This document shows, piece after piece, positions 4,084-10,457 of a stretch of 12,591 bases of DNA (position 1 is its first letter; each line of letters opens with the position of its first letter). Under the pieces are notes generated by a model. That model saw only the letters and a program-made list of their open reading frames with translations. It was not told the DNA's origin and did not search any database. The translations under genes were made by a program, and so were the position numbers. Source of the DNA: an uncultured Ventosimonas sp. (GTDB lineage Bacteria > Pseudomonadota > Gammaproteobacteria > Pseudomonadales > Pseudomonadaceae). The DNA lies in assembly GCA_945283395.1 (NCBI GenBank), contig CALYQH010000012.1, positions 1 through 12,591 on the forward strand, given 5' to 3'.

Positions 4084-5337
4084 TTATCTCTTCGTGGGTA
4101 ATAGTTGTTCGTTAGCATAGAGTGACGTTAACGTTTCGCGTTGCCTTACCAAAAAAGCTTCATGGCCATCGACCATAACCTCAGCTGCTCGGCCACGACT
4201 ATTATAATTAGAACTCATTGCAAAGCCATAAGCGCCTGCTGAGCAAATAGCTAGGAGATCTCCTTCGTTAATGGAAAGTGCTCGATTTTTGCCAAGAAAG
4301 TCACTCGTTTCACAGACTGGCCCAACTACATCATAAAGTATAGTTGGTGCTTGTTGCGTTATGACCGGTTTTATGTCCATCCATGCTTCATATAAGGCGG
4401 GGCGGATAAGATCGTTCATGGCTGCATCGACAATTGCAAAATTTTTATGAGTAGTATGTTTGAGGTATTCAACTTGAGTAATTAATACTCCTGCATTAGC
4501 TACAATATAGCGGCCTGGTTCAAAAATAATAGCTAATTTTCGATTTGCTAAACGATCTCTTACGGCTTTTATATAGTCACTTGCTAAAGGGGGGTGTTCA
4601 TCACTATAACAGACGCCCAGACCACCTCCTAAATCGAGGTGTTCAATCTGAATACCTTTACTTGCTAGTTTATCAGTCAGATGTAATAATCTGTCCAAAG
4701 CGTCTAAGAAAGGTTCAAGAGAAGTCAGTTGCGAACCTATATGACAATCAATGCCTTTAATTTGTAAATTTTTATGAGTTGCCGCGGCTTGATATATTTG
4801 CTCAGCTTCATTTATATCAATACCAAACTTATTTTCTTTTAAGCCAGTTGAAATATAAGGATGAGTTTGAGCATCTACATCAGGATTAATTCTTAGTGAA
4901 ATAGGGGCGATTTTCCCCATACCAGTAGCTATTTTTTGAATTCTTGCTAGTTCATTAGTTGATTCTATATTAAAACAGTAAACGCCTACTTCTAATGCTC
5001 TTCGGATATCATCAATGGTTTTCCCCACCCCAGAAAAAACTATCTTGTCAGCCTTACCGCCCGCTGCTAACACGCGTTCTAATTCACCTCTAGAGACAAT
5101 ATCAAAGCCAGCACCTAATGTTGCTAATACATTGAGTACGGCTATATTAGAGTTTGCTTTAACAGCAAAACAGACTAGATGTTCTGTACCTTCTAATGCT
5201 TGCTTATAGTTATTGAATTGTTGTGCTATATAATTTTTTGAATAAACATAGGTGGGGGTCCCAAATTCTTTCGCAATATTAACTAAAGGCACTTGCTCGG
5301 CATACATTTGGCCATTTTTATAAGCAAAAGCTTGCAT
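4084..5337 (-). CDS. lysA: Diaminopimelate decarboxylase LysA
   Basis: LysA is the PLP-dependent, fold-III enzyme that decarboxylates meso-diaminopimelate to L-lysine, the last step of lysine synthesis. The 417-residue length is normal. Visible motifs are the PLP lysine Lys60 in CFAVKAN, the HIGSQ segment (199-203), the phosphate-binding GGGLG (237-241), EPGR (273-276) and the cross-subunit active-site cysteine Cys342 in CETSDFL, followed by the C-terminal [14 protein letters not shown]. Its ATG shares one base with the lptM stop codon (TAATG), so translation is probably coupled. Its product pathway joins directly with dapF immediately downstream. All key residues are kept. Confidence 0.96.
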
Positions 5338-5567
5338 TATTTGTTGTCCCCCTCAGCTTCATTAGGCGAAGTTGTGTTTTCAGTAGCAGGTTGTTCTTTA
5401 GTAGTTATAGGTTGAGTTTTATTGTTTACTTCGGCAGGGTTAGATTCTGCTTCAATTTTAGGCGGAGATTGCTTTTCTGGTAAATAAAGGGCTCCTTTTT
5501 GGCCGCAGCCCAATAATACAAACATAAAAGCAGCTAAAATTAGCATGGGTAAACAAAATATTTTCAT
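5337..5567 (-). CDS. lptM: LptM/YifL-type small lipoprotein
   Basis: A 76-residue lipoprotein starts at ATG 5567 (MKIFCLPMLIL). The frame also has a TTG at 5579, but that would leave almost no leader behind the promoter at 5588-5616. A hydrophobic signal segment (residues 5-19) ends in the lipobox LLGC with lipidated Cys21, followed by the family signature GCGQKGALYLP. The rest is low-complexity, rich in Pro, Glu, Asn and Thr. LptM (formerly YifL or LppL) is known in E. coli as a lipoprotein that helps the outer-membrane LptD/E LPS translocon mature. The position upstream of lysA-dapF and divergent from cyaY is the conserved one. Mature residues after Cys lack Asp at +2, consistent with outer-membrane sorting. 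Confidence 0.88.
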   Translation of the reverse strand: MKIFCLPMLILAAFMFVLLGCGQKGALYLPEKQSPPKIEAESNPAEVNNKTQPITTKEQPATENTTSPNEAEGDNK

Positions 5568-5587
5568 GATTTTATCCAATTAAACCT

Positions 5588-5616
5588 TTTATACTATATA
5601 GAAGTATACCGAGCAA
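5588..5616 (-). promoter_or_regulatory. Predicted sigma-70 promoter for the lptM-lysA-dapF-DUF484-xerC operon
   Basis: On the minus strand, a -35 box TTGCTC (5616-5611) and a -10 box TATAAA (5593-5588) are separated by 17 bases. Transcription would start near 5581, about 15 bases before the lptM ATG at 5567. The short leader supports that start over the upstream TTG. Confidence 0.5.
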
Positions 5617-5631
5617 TGAGTGGCTTGACTA

Positions 5632-5660
5632 TTGGTTGTATAATTTTCCTTTAATATAAT
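5632..5660 (+). promoter_or_regulatory. Predicted sigma-70 promoter for cyaY
   Basis: A -35 box TTGGTT (5632-5637) and a perfect -10 box TATAAT (5655-5660) are separated by 17 bases. The cyaY ATG lies 26 bases downstream of the -10 box, preceded by the ribosome binding site GAGGAAA. The promoter is back to back with the one for lptM. Confidence 0.6.
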
Positions 5661-5686
5661 GGTAAGATAATTTCTGAGGAAAGCAA

Positions 5687-6013
5687 ATGAAAGCATTGAG
5701 TGAACAACAGTATCAGCTACTGGTTGATAAATTACAAGATCATCTAGAGGCTCTGTTAGAGAATACTGATCTTGATTTGGATATAGATAATTCAGGAGGT
5801 ATATTAACTGTTCATTTTGTTAATGGTAGTCAGATTATCATTAGTAGGCAACCCGCTTTAAAACAAGTATGGCTTGCTGCTAAATCAGGTGGTTATCATC
5901 TAGATTATGATGATAAAGGTCAGCAATGGTTATTAGTATCGACTAATGAGACATTAGAACAATTATTAACTAGGGTTATTAAAGAGCAAACAGGTCAATT
6001 AATAGTTATTTAG
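5687..6013 (+). CDS. cyaY: Iron-sulfur cluster assembly protein CyaY (bacterial frataxin)
   Basis: CyaY is the bacterial frataxin, a cytoplasmic iron-binding protein that interacts with the desulfurase IscS and tunes Fe-S cluster assembly. At 108 residues the length is typical. The first helix (about residues 5-33) ends in an acidic cluster, NTDLDLDID, the expected iron- and IscS-binding surface. It is followed by the beta-sheet strands ILTVHFVNGSQIIISRQ, then KQVWLAAKSGGYHLDY with the conserved Q-V-W-L-A motif, and the final helix. The start is supported by GAGGAAA eight bases upstream. It is divergent from lptM as in Pseudomonas and is probably a single-gene unit. Confidence 0.94.
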   Translation: MKALSEQQYQLLVDKLQDHLEALLENTDLDLDIDNSGGILTVHFVNGSQIIISRQPALKQVWLAAKSGGYHLDYDDKGQQWLLVSTNETLEQLLTRVIKEQTGQLIVI

Positions 6014-6076
6014 TAACACTTTAATGATCCTGAAGAAATTATTATGATTTAAATTCATGTATTTAATTTAAAATGA

Positions 6077-6097
6077 ATAGATAATAAAGCTATCTAT
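6077..6097. repeat. Perfect 7-bp inverted repeat between cyaY and gcvT
   Basis: ATAGATA (6077-6083) and TATCTAT (6091-6097) are perfect complements around a seven-base loop ATAAAGC. It lies in the 124-base AT-rich gap between cyaY and gcvT, 40 bases before the gcvT start. It could be a weak hairpin or an operator. The gap shows no glycine riboswitch core. Confidence 0.4.
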
Positions 6098-6137
6098 AAA
6101 ATAGTTTAATAAACCTAATTTAACTGAAGGAGCGATT

Positions 6138-7220
6138 ATGGGACTACGTACCCCCTTGTACGAGCAACATTTGGCTCTTGGCGCAGAAATGTCAGAAGTT
6201 AATGGATGGGAATTGCCTTTACACTATGGATCACAAGTAGAGGAACATTGTCAAGTCAGAAAAGATTGCGGGGTGTTTGACGTGTCTTTTATGACGGTGG
6301 TAGATGTATTGGGAGAACAGGCTAAAGCATACTTACACTATTTATTGGCTAATGATGTAGAACTTTTACATGGCAATGGTAGTGGACTTTACAGTGTGAT
6401 GTTAAATGAGCAGGCAGGAATCATTGATGATGCGCTCATTTATTTAATGCCTGATGGCTATCGCCTTATGTTTAATACAGGTTTTACTGATCGAATTATT
6501 GGCTGGATGAAGCTTAATAAAGGAATTTTTAAGGTAACTATCAAGCCTCAACAAGATATAGCTATTCTTTCTATTCAAGGGCCTAATGCGGTCAGTAAAT
6601 TAGTTAAATTGTTAGATCAACAGTATGTTGCGCAATTGGAAAAATTACAGCCACTTTATAGTTGTTTAGTAGGAGGTTGGTTTATTTCGCGCACTGGATA
6701 TACCGGTGAAGATGGGGTTGAGATAATATTACCAAAAGCAGAGGCTGAGCATTTATGGTTAGAACTAGTAGGTGCAGGCATTATGCCGATAGGTATGAGA
6801 GCAAGAGACACCTTAAGATTAGAGGCTGGTTATAGCTTGTATGGACAGGATATGAACGAGGATATTTCACCTTTATCTTGTAATATGGATTGGACCGTAG
6901 CATGGATTCCTGAAGATAGAAATTTTATAGGGCGTGAAGCTTTAGACAAAAAGCGCCAAAACGGTATTTGTAATAAGCTAATTGGGTTAGTTTCGGAGGA
7001 GCGTGGAACACTGCATAATGGTCAGTTAGTGAGAATTGAAGGAAAAGAAGAGGGAGTTATTACGAGCACTAACTTTTCTCCTACGTTAGGTAAATGTATA
7101 GCATTAGCTAGAGTTCCTGTAAAAACTGGCTCAAGGGCTGAGGTCGAAATAAAAGGCAAATGGTATCCGGTGCGCATAGTATCACCTCGGTTTGTATGGC
7201 ATGGTGAGATTTTAATTTAA
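6138..7220 (+). CDS. gcvT: Aminomethyltransferase GcvT (glycine cleavage T-protein)
   Basis: GcvT takes the aminomethyl group from the lipoyl arm of GcvH, releases ammonia and forms 5,10-methylene-tetrahydrofolate. The 360-residue protein has the expected start MGLRTPLYEQHLALGA, LPLHYGSQVEEH (26-37), the Asp pair IIDD (95-98), IQGPN (146-150), RTGYTGEDGVEI (185-196), RARDTLRLEAG (221-231) and LYGQDMNEDISPL (234-246). The start is supported by AAGGAG just upstream. Compared with the family as I recall it, several N-terminal positions are changed: FxGW is VNGW, DVSHM is DVSFM (Phe51 for His), and the usual VVNSATREKD-like stretch reads MFNTGFTDRI. The gene is otherwise complete and is followed after 24 bases by gcvH, so the two are probably cotranscribed. 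gcvP is not present here. Confidence 0.93.
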   Translation: MGLRTPLYEQHLALGAEMSEVNGWELPLHYGSQVEEHCQVRKDCGVFDVSFMTVVDVLGEQAKAYLHYLLANDVELLHGNGSGLYSVMLNEQAGIIDDALIYLMPDGYRLMFNTGFTDRIIGWMKLNKGIFKVTIKPQQDIAILSIQGPNAVSKLVKLLDQQYVAQLEKLQPLYSCLVGGWFISRTGYTGEDGVEIILPKAEAEHLWLELVGAGIMPIGMRARDTLRLEAGYSLYGQDMNEDISPLSCNMDWTVAWIPEDRNFIGREALDKKRQNGICNKLIGLVSEERGTLHNGQLVRIEGKEEGVITSTNFSPTLGKCIALARVPVKTGSRAEVEIKGKWYPVRIVSPRFVWHGEILI

Positions 7221-7244
7221 GAAAGATATTGGAGTAATTAATAA

Positions 7245-7628
7245 ATGAGCAATATTCCCCAAGAGTTACGTTATACCAGTAGCCATTCATGGGTTCAACA
7301 GCAAGCTGATGGTAGCTTAAAGGTAGGTATTACCGATTTTGCCCAAAATGCACTGGGGGATATAGTTTTTGTTCAGCTACCTGATGTAGGAGAGAACTAC
7401 CAATTAGATCAGCAGATAGGGTTAGTAGAATCGGTAAAAACGGGCTCAGATATCTATGCACCTATCACAGGGGAGGTACTGGCTATTAACCAAGCAATTA
7501 GTGATAATCCTGAGCTAATTAACGATAATCCTTATCAGGCATGGCTTTATATAATAATGCCAGAAGCTAATTTAGAAACCAACAGTTTATTAACAGCAGA
7601 TAATTATCATAATTTAATTAATGAATGA
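7245..7628 (+). CDS. gcvH: Glycine cleavage system H protein GcvH
   Basis: GcvH is the lipoylated carrier that shuttles the aminomethyl intermediate between GcvP, GcvT and the dihydrolipoamide dehydrogenase. The 127-residue length is normal. Family features are the start ELRYTSSHSWV, GITDFAQNALGDIVFVQLP (28-46) and the lipoylation site Lys65 in LVESVKTGSDIYAPITGE. The conserved ISDNPELINDNPY segment follows at about 85-97. A GGAG sequence about ten bases before the ATG serves as ribosome binding site. It follows gcvT closely and is followed by a hairpin that may end the unit. All key residues are kept, so it should be functional if gcvP and a lipoyl ligase exist elsewhere. Confidence 0.95.
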   Translation: MSNIPQELRYTSSHSWVQQQADGSLKVGITDFAQNALGDIVFVQLPDVGENYQLDQQIGLVESVKTGSDIYAPITGEVLAINQAISDNPELINDNPYQAWLYIIMPEANLETNSLLTADNYHNLINE

Positions 7629-7734: not shown

Positions 7735-7763
7735 ACTGTCTACACACAAGGAACAGGCTTCTT

Positions 7764-7841
7764 ATGGGCAATGACATCGCCAGAGAAATTCTCCCCGTCA
7801 AAATTGAAGATGAAATTTAAAAATCGTATTTAGACTATGCT
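7764..7841 (+). other. gyrA: Conserved gyrA N-terminal codons interrupted by in-frame TAA
   Basis: ATG 7764 has a good ribosome binding site (AAGGAA, 7747-7753) and opens codons reading GNDIAREILPVKIEDEI, then TAA at 7818-7820 (codon 19), then KSYLDYA running in frame into the Met at 7842. In E. coli and Pseudomonas GyrA the same stretch reads through (for example [15 protein letters not shown]), with Lys or a similar residue where the TAA lies. One A-to-T change in a Lys codon would explain it. The translated part before the stop is an 18-codon open frame ending 21 bases before ATG 7842. This is seen directly in the sequence; whether it is real or an error cannot be told here. Confidence 0.85.
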
Positions 7842-10457
7842 ATGAGTGTTATTGTCGGGCGAGCTTTGCCTGATGTGCGCGACGGCCTAAAGCCTGTGCA
7901 CAGGCGTGTCTTGTATGCTATGAATGATACGGGTAATGCGTGGAATAAGGCCTATATGAAATCGGCTCGTATCGTAGGCGATGTCATAGGTAGATATCAT
8001 CCTCATGGCGATTCAGCGGTTTACGATACTATTGTGCGGATGGCCCAGCCTTTTTCAATGCGCTATATGCTGGTTGATGGTCAAGGCAACTTCGGCTCTG
8101 TAGATGGTGACTCAGCAGCAGCCATGCGTTATACCGAAATTCGCATGCAAAAGCTCACCCACGAAATGTTAGCAGATTTAGATAAAGAAACCGTTGATTG
8201 GGTGGATAATTATGATGGTTCTTTAAAAATTCCTGCGGTACTACCTACTAAAATTCCAGCTTTACTGGTTAATGGTTCAAGTGGTATTGCGGTGGGTATG
8301 GCGACCAATATTCCGCCCCATAATTTAACCGAAGTTATTAATGGTTGTTTAGCATTAATAGAAGATGAAACACTTTCTATTGATCAATTAATGGAGTATA
8401 TCCCCGGCCCTGATTTCCCTACCGCAGGTATTATTAATGGTCGTGCTGGTATTATCGAGGCTTATAAAACTGGACGTGGCCGCTTATATATAAGGGCTAG
8501 AACTCATATTGAAGCAATTGATAATGGTCGTGAACAAATTGTTGTCACTGAATTACCTTATCAAGTTAATAAAGCGCGCTTAATAGAAAAAATTGCTGAG
8601 CTAGTTAAAGAGAAAAAAGTTGAAGGGATTAGTGAATTAAGGGATGAATCCGATAAAGAAGGGATGCGCATGGTGATTGAATTGCGTAGAGGTGAGATCC
8701 CTGAAGTAGTGATTAATAATCTTTATGCACAAACTCAATTACAGAGTGTATTTGGAATCAATAATGTTGCTTTAGTAGATGGTCAGCCTAAATTATTAAA
8801 CTTAAAAGAAATGTTAGAGGCGTTTGTACGTCATCGCCGTGAAGTAGTGACTCGTCGCACTATCTTTGAATTACTTAAAGCGCGCGAGCGTGGACATATA
8901 ATTGAAGGTTTAGCTGTTGCACTGGCTAATATTGATCCTATTATTGAATTAATTAAAAAGTCTTCAACGCCTCTTGAGGCTAAAGATAAGCTATTGGCTA
9001 AAGCTTGGGAAGCAGGGCCTATACAAGCAATGATTGAAAAAACAGGCGCAGAGAGTTGCCGCCCTGATGACTTAGAGGAGCAATATGGTCTTAAGGATGG
9101 TAAATATTATTTATCGCCAATACAAGCACAGGCCATATTAGATTTACGGTTACACCGTTTAACTGGCTTAGAGCATGAAAAATTAATAGAAGAATATCAA
9201 CAAATCTTAGATCAAATAGCTGAGCTTATTCGTATTTTGACTATCCCTGAGCATTTGATGGAAATTATTCGTGATGAATTAATAAAAATTCGTGATGAGT
9301 TTGGTGATGAGCGTTATTCTGAAATCGTTGTTTCACAAATGGATTTAACAAAAGCTGATTTAATACCAGAAGAAGAACGGGTAGTCACTTTATCTTATGG
9401 TGGTTATGCTAAATCTCAACCGTTAGCTGCTTACCAAGCACAACGTCGAGGTGGTAAAGGTAAATCGGCAACGGGAATAAAGGACGAGGATTATATTGCT
9501 CATCTGTTAGTAGCTAATAGTCATGCAACGCTCCTATTATTTTCTAGCAAAGGTAAGGTTTATTCGTTACGTACCTTTGAAATTCCTGAAGCTTCTCGCG
9601 CAGCTCGTGGTCGTCCATTAGTTAATATTATTCCCTTGGATGAAGGTGAAACTATTACCACTATGCTGCCAGTGGATGAGTTTGCTGAGGGGCGTTATAT
9701 CTTTATGGCTACGGCCAATGGCACTGTCAAAAAGACCCCATTAGAGCAATTTAGTAAAGTACGTAAAAATGGTTTAATTGCATTAACTCTCAAAGAAGGT
9801 GATATGCTTATCTCTGCTGCTATTACTGATGGTAATAGTGAAGTAATGCTATTTACTGATGAGGGAAAAGTAGTAAGGTTTGAAGAAAGCAAAGTTCGTG
9901 AAATGGGACGAACTGCTAAAGGTGTACGCGGTATTAGATTACCTAAAGAAGGCGAAGTAGATACAGGCGAAGACGAAACGACACCGGTCATGGAAGATGA
10001 AAATGAAGAAGATACAAGTTTAGAAAATTTTAGCAGTCATGTGATTGCCATGATTATTCCAGAACCTAATGCCTATATATTAACAGCCTCTGCAAGAGGT
10101 TATGGTAAGCGTACAGCAATTGATCAATATCCGTTACGTGGTCGAGGTGGCAAAGGGGTTATTTCTATGATTACTAGCGAACGTAATGGTAAGATAGTGG
10201 GAGCTGTACAGGTACAGGATGGAGAAGAAATTATGCTGATTTCTGATCTAGGAACATTAGTACGCACTCGTGTTGATGAAATTCGCCCAATGGGTCGTAA
10301 TACTCAAGGTGTGATGTTAATCAGACTTTCTAACAATGAAACCTTAGTTGGTCTTGAGCGTGTTCAGGAACCATCAGCAATGGAACATGATGGACTTGAT
10401 GATACCCCACTTGAAAATAACGCAATTAATGATGAGGAAAAATCAACTCTTCAATAA
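7842..10457 (+). CDS. gyrA: DNA gyrase subunit A (open from internal Met; N-terminal arm cut off by a stop)
   Basis: GyrA is the DNA-cleaving subunit of gyrase, which with GyrB introduces negative supercoils. The open frame gives 871 residues; with the interrupted N-terminus the family length would be 897. The first residue here matches E. coli Met26. The winged-helix cleavage domain holds the catalytic Tyr97 ([10 protein letters not shown]. coli Tyr122). The quinolone region reads [10 protein letters not shown] with Ser58 and Asp62 (E. coli 83 and 87), the wild-type, sensitive state. The GyrA box QRRGGKG is at 534-540, followed by the beta-pinwheel domain and an acidic tail. A 32-residue acidic insert lies at 702-733. 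ATG 7842 has no visible ribosome binding site, so translation may depend on reinitiation or on readthrough from 7764. It is followed by serC after 49 bases with no terminator seen. Confidence 0.93.

Follow-up and report, generated by a model that had tools for sequence, protein, structure and literature searches.

An in-frame TAA at codon 19 of gyrA in an Entomomonas-like draft genome: a correct observation of what is most likely not a biological feature

How can gyrA, an essential gene, carry an in-frame stop at codon 19? The question is raised by a draft genome (1,852,239 bases spread over 358 contigs; completeness 77.9%) of an Entomomonas-like bacterium of the Pseudomonadaceae. The window, that is, the whole stretch of 12,591 nucleotides analyzed here, is contig 12 of this draft. 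Reading gyrA from the ATG at 7764 gives 18 residues, a TAA and then gyrase sequence again in the same frame, just as the initial annotation described (Table 1). That the frame is shared on both sides of the stop is not due to chance, because 25 or 26 residues, the N-terminal arm, precede the conserved Met in all 120 homologues listed among 8000 scored. In this assembly, the arm is not continuous with the cleavage domain, being interrupted by the TAA. Four explanations had been offered: a sequencing or assembly error, readthrough of the TAA, reinitiation at 7842, and a gyrase that truly lacks the arm.

Table 1. Location of the gyrA features in the window and of the lesions in three other genes of the same draft
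Feature	Location	Strand	Basis or description
Shine-Dalgarno-like AAGGA before ATG 7764	7748..7752	+	sequence; predicted pairing energy -5.1 kcal/mol
Start of N-terminal arm, gyrA codons 1-18	7764..7817	+	residues identical to the first 18 of P0001
In-frame TAA at gyrA codon 19; consensus error most likely	7818..7820	+	sense codon in P0001; 109 other loci stop-free in the 12 codons before Met
KSYLDYA, seven final arm codons from TAA to Met 7842	7821..7841	+	sequence
Open remainder of gyrA, 871 codons plus stop, beginning at conserved internal Met	7842..10457	+	ORF listing; NCBIfam TIGR01063
acnB	L116 (G000 contig 6), gene 4672-7266, codons 521-613	minus	stop and ten missense changes in 93 codons
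iscS	L115 (G000 contig 5), near 4161	minus	55-bp frameshifting deletion
cbiD	L242 (G000 contig 53), 3886-3888	plus	in-frame TAA, codon 331

The longest gyrA open reading frame with a start codon in the window is that of 871 amino acids at 7842-10457. It scored 1167.1 bits against the curated GyrA model TIGR01063 (cut-off 877) and 1177.3 bits against NF004043 (cut-off 902). The tyrosine of the RYTEI motif, which we take to be the catalytic residue, is present as Y97 of this frame and is invariant in 27 aligned rows. The motif QRRGGKG, named as the GyrA-box in PMC6821735, occupies residues 534-540 and is invariant in the same rows. The 871 intact codons had been thought to indicate selection on a truncated product; this does not follow, since the codons would be equally undamaged after a very recent mutation or in the case of an error. 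A second gyrA was sought, as had been suggested, and only one GyrA/ParC-family match was found in the 77.9% complete genome. No ParC-like match accompanied it, whereas a second, ParC-like locus was present in every one of the 36 further genomes searched; as the draft is incomplete, this absence is unsurprising, and the ParC-like gene is probably missing for that reason.

The neighborhood of gyrA looks normal. Neighboring genes in the window include cyaY, gcvT, gcvH and pheA, identified by NCBIfam, and, judged by translation, what are presumably xerC, dapF, lysA and serC. From 1675 to its end the window aligns with two congeners, the DNA being 74% identical. A separate region of about 1.2 kb (411-1655) contains no ORF of at least 60 amino acids, and nothing in it matched any of 870 ORFs from the finished congener G002; it is possibly a decayed gene.

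Start signals were compared at the two candidate initiation codons. At ATG 7764, the ribosome-binding site is normal and common to three aligned congeners, in which AAGGAACAGGCTT through ATGGGCA is conserved, with a single base differing in L004. The 16S tail is predicted to pair there with -5.1 kcal/mol, the median for 102 gene starts in this draft being -4.6. The good site that the initial annotation reported is thus present, although its position at 7747-7753 was one base off, AAGGA lying at 7748-7752. It was right that no such site precedes ATG 7842: predicted pairing there is +0.2 kcal/mol, and only 3% of the 102 starts are as weak or weaker. The same holds for 13% of 1147 internal ATG codons. 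In the KSYLDYA stretch between the stop and Met 7842, no in-frame ATG, GTG or TTG was seen.

The most informative relative is the protein P0001, which is identical to the window ORF at 865 of 871 residues and has the full length of 897 amino acids. Since the next protein is only 89% identical, P0001 in all likelihood belongs to the same species as the window. It stands for a cluster listed with 21 member sequences and two contigs, of which one representative protein was compared. It lies on another contig (the longest has 25,812 bases, against 12,591 for the window), its first 18 residues are those of the window, and its codon 19 is a sense codon. The initial annotation had proposed a comparison of gyrA starts in relatives and held that a sense codon at this position would make the stop an error or a private mutation; the comparison with P0001 leads to just this alternative.

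Other relatives agree. The 26 proteins nearest to the window GyrA are 894-897 amino acids long. Among 110 loci read on both strands, which include the window's own copy and count some genomes twice, none of the 109 others had a stop in the 12 codons upstream of the conserved Met, and the equivalent of Met 7842 was a conserved internal residue in all 110. GyrA of Entomomonas (P0004 from E. asaccharolytica, P0005 from Entomomonas sp. E2T0 and P0014 from E. moraniae) is the same gene, 87-88% identical over the 871-residue part; the start region is alike in the three congeners aligned, and the difference is the codon-19 stop, found in the window only. A cluster of changed codons around the stop, seen in comparison with Pseudomonas and one congener, was considered and rejected. 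P0001 and P0002 share those flanking residues, so only codon 19 is private.

The rest of the window gene was searched for private missense changes. One was found at residue 345, where all 120 listed homologues have Arg; both this change and the codon-19 stop were transversions, as inferred from the draft codon and the residue of the sister protein. Two further private changes, at residues 825 and 828, were transitions by the same inference and fall at sites that are variable in the wider family. In the 27-row alignment, the window had three private missense changes at columns where the other 26 rows do not vary, and other rows had 0 to 6; in the 121-row alignment, the window had one at columns invariant in the other 120 rows, and another row had seven. 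The private missense count of the window gyrA is not an outlier.

The occurrence of broken genes was then assessed across the draft. We compared 870 ORFs, taken from 1.2 of the 3.2 Mb of G002, with 61 of the 358 draft contigs (641 kb), the first two of these contigs being covered to 20,000 bases only. From 167 matched genes, 155 orthologues covered over at least 80% of their length were kept; the 12 dropped for lower coverage included none clear of a contig end. Neither stop nor split was found in 149 of the 155. Of the other six, one was split and five had a stop, in two cases at the last codons, leaving gyrA, acnB, cbiD and iscS, all named by NCBIfam via their G002 copies. As a control, 400 kb of the finished congener G003 yielded a stop in four of 236 orthologues; three of these stops fell in codons 1-38, counted from a start that had been picked mechanically, and the fourth was at the next-to-last codon. 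By this measure, the gyrA stop alone would not stand out; what sets it apart is P0001 together with the conserved arm. Lesions inside genes and far from both ends numbered three of 155 in the draft versus none of 236 in G003, small numbers in both cases. An assembly ridden with errors throughout was not supported, given the 149 orthologues with neither lesion. General genome decay was not supported either, as coding density was 0.865 over 60 contigs of the draft, compared with 0.880 in G002 and 0.869 in G003. The draft is mostly reliable, but not everywhere.

The clearest of the other lesions is in acnB, whose internal stop is a TGA at codon 561. Within codons 521-613, 11 codons differ from the sister protein P0122, and all 11 changes are transversions when inferred from the draft codon and the residue in P0122. 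The 17 same-species proteins compared, each of 865 amino acids, show no variation at ten of these sites (P0139, with 857 amino acids, was excluded for its length), and the patch residues of the draft are also unlike those of ten other Entomomonas-like proteins. All private acnB changes of the draft lie in this patch. Outside it, only two differences from P0122 were found, both transitions and both present in other members of the species. Private changes in the other 17 sequences ranged from 0 to 4 each, with none in 12 of them. Because natural variation in a conserved enzyme is rarely so dense, codons 521-613 look like a stretch of bad consensus. In iscS, no private missense change was found around the deletion; its open piece has ten counterparts with 99-100% identity, all of them full-length proteins of 404 amino acids that keep the 55 bp. 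The deletion may be an error or may be real. In cbiD, the sequence beyond the TAA can be aligned to its end with the G002 copy.

Taken against this background, the codon-19 TAA is probably a consensus error in a fragmented draft genome, and of the four explanations offered it is the possibility of a sequencing or assembly error that gained support. A one-base error in the consensus would produce the TAA at 7818-7820; the gyrA of the living cells would in that case be an ordinary full-length gene, with 897 codons and translation from ATG 7764, and reads at this position would be expected not to support TAA. This reading is backed by P0001 and the other relatives without the stop, by other private lesions in the same draft and by one dense, error-like patch among them. 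Like the 11 changed codons of that patch, the gyrA stop and the change at residue 345 are transversions by comparison with a sister protein. Like the lesions in acnB and iscS, the gyrA stop is a private lesion in a conserved gene of which near-identical copies are intact. It differs from them in form, being an isolated stop rather than a dense patch or a 55-bp deletion, and its isolation counts against an error. So do the lack of private missense changes in iscS, the ordinary missense count of gyrA and the soundness of most of the draft. With the stops of the G003 control, these points leave some probability to a real private mutation.

Such a mutation would be recent and deleterious, whether a true nonsense change of the strain sampled or a minority variant chosen by the assembler; weak restart at Met 7842 might partly rescue it. 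We consider it unlikely, but it is the alternative to be taken most seriously. Apart from the one change that makes the stop, the gene is intact, and the three private missense changes at columns without variation among the other 26 nearest rows might be expected in a damaged lineage. Restart downstream of early stops is a known phenomenon, described in PMC4648390 for a eukaryotic expression system. However, gyrA is essential and the draft yielded no second copy, there is no ribosome-binding site at Met 7842, other draft genes contain error-like lesions, and the coding density matches that of congeners, which argues against general decay.

A real stop that is tolerated is very improbable. In this case, an 18-codon leader would be followed by reinitiation at Met 7842, giving an armless GyrA and tying the level of gyrase to termination. 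An in-frame ATG does lie 21 bases downstream of the stop, with the frame open from there on. The arrangement resembles reinitiation after an early stop as a general phenomenon (PMC4648390), with a stop in the first codons and a downstream in-frame start, but differs from it in that the restart has no ribosome-binding site and is not conserved. Features expected of a regulatory leader were not observed: the stop has no counterpart in the 12 codons before the Met at the 109 other loci, nor in P0001, no ribosome-binding site precedes the restart codon, and Met 7842, conserved as an internal residue, is not a start that evolved here. Function of the arm also speaks against its loss. In the E. coli structure, as presented in PMC6821735, the TOPRIM insertion of GyrB pivots around the GyrA arm, which takes part in gate movement of the enzyme. 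This agrees with the earlier statement that the arm packs against GyrB. (The arm referred to in PMC9886550 is part of a drug, not of GyrA.) Coupling of gyrase level to termination by reinitiation at 7842 and a gyrase truly without its arm were therefore left without positive support: no relative has the stop, the restart has no binding site and the arm is present in every homologue listed.

Readthrough of the TAA or its reassignment as a sense codon fits the frame being open on either side but can be practically dismissed, since TAA is an ordinary terminator here (69 of 135 draft genes, with TAG in 37 and TGA in 29), the draft's internal stops differ in codon (TAA in gyrA and cbiD, TGA in acnB), no relative has the stop, and no suppressor tRNA was listed among the only five tRNAs found in 60 draft contigs and the window of this incomplete genome.

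The in-frame stop was observed correctly, and most likely it is not biological. When an essential gene in a draft genome contains a stop, comparison with near-identical copies should come first, and the same caution is due for acnB, iscS and perhaps cbiD of this draft. We see scarcely any prospect that the TAA is genuinely present in a living Entomomonas strain, with restart at Met 7842 yielding an armless GyrA. If this were true, the N-terminal arm of gyrase would be dispensable in nature and the level of gyrase would be tied to termination at codon 19; a real stop would offer a natural test of gyrase function without the arm.
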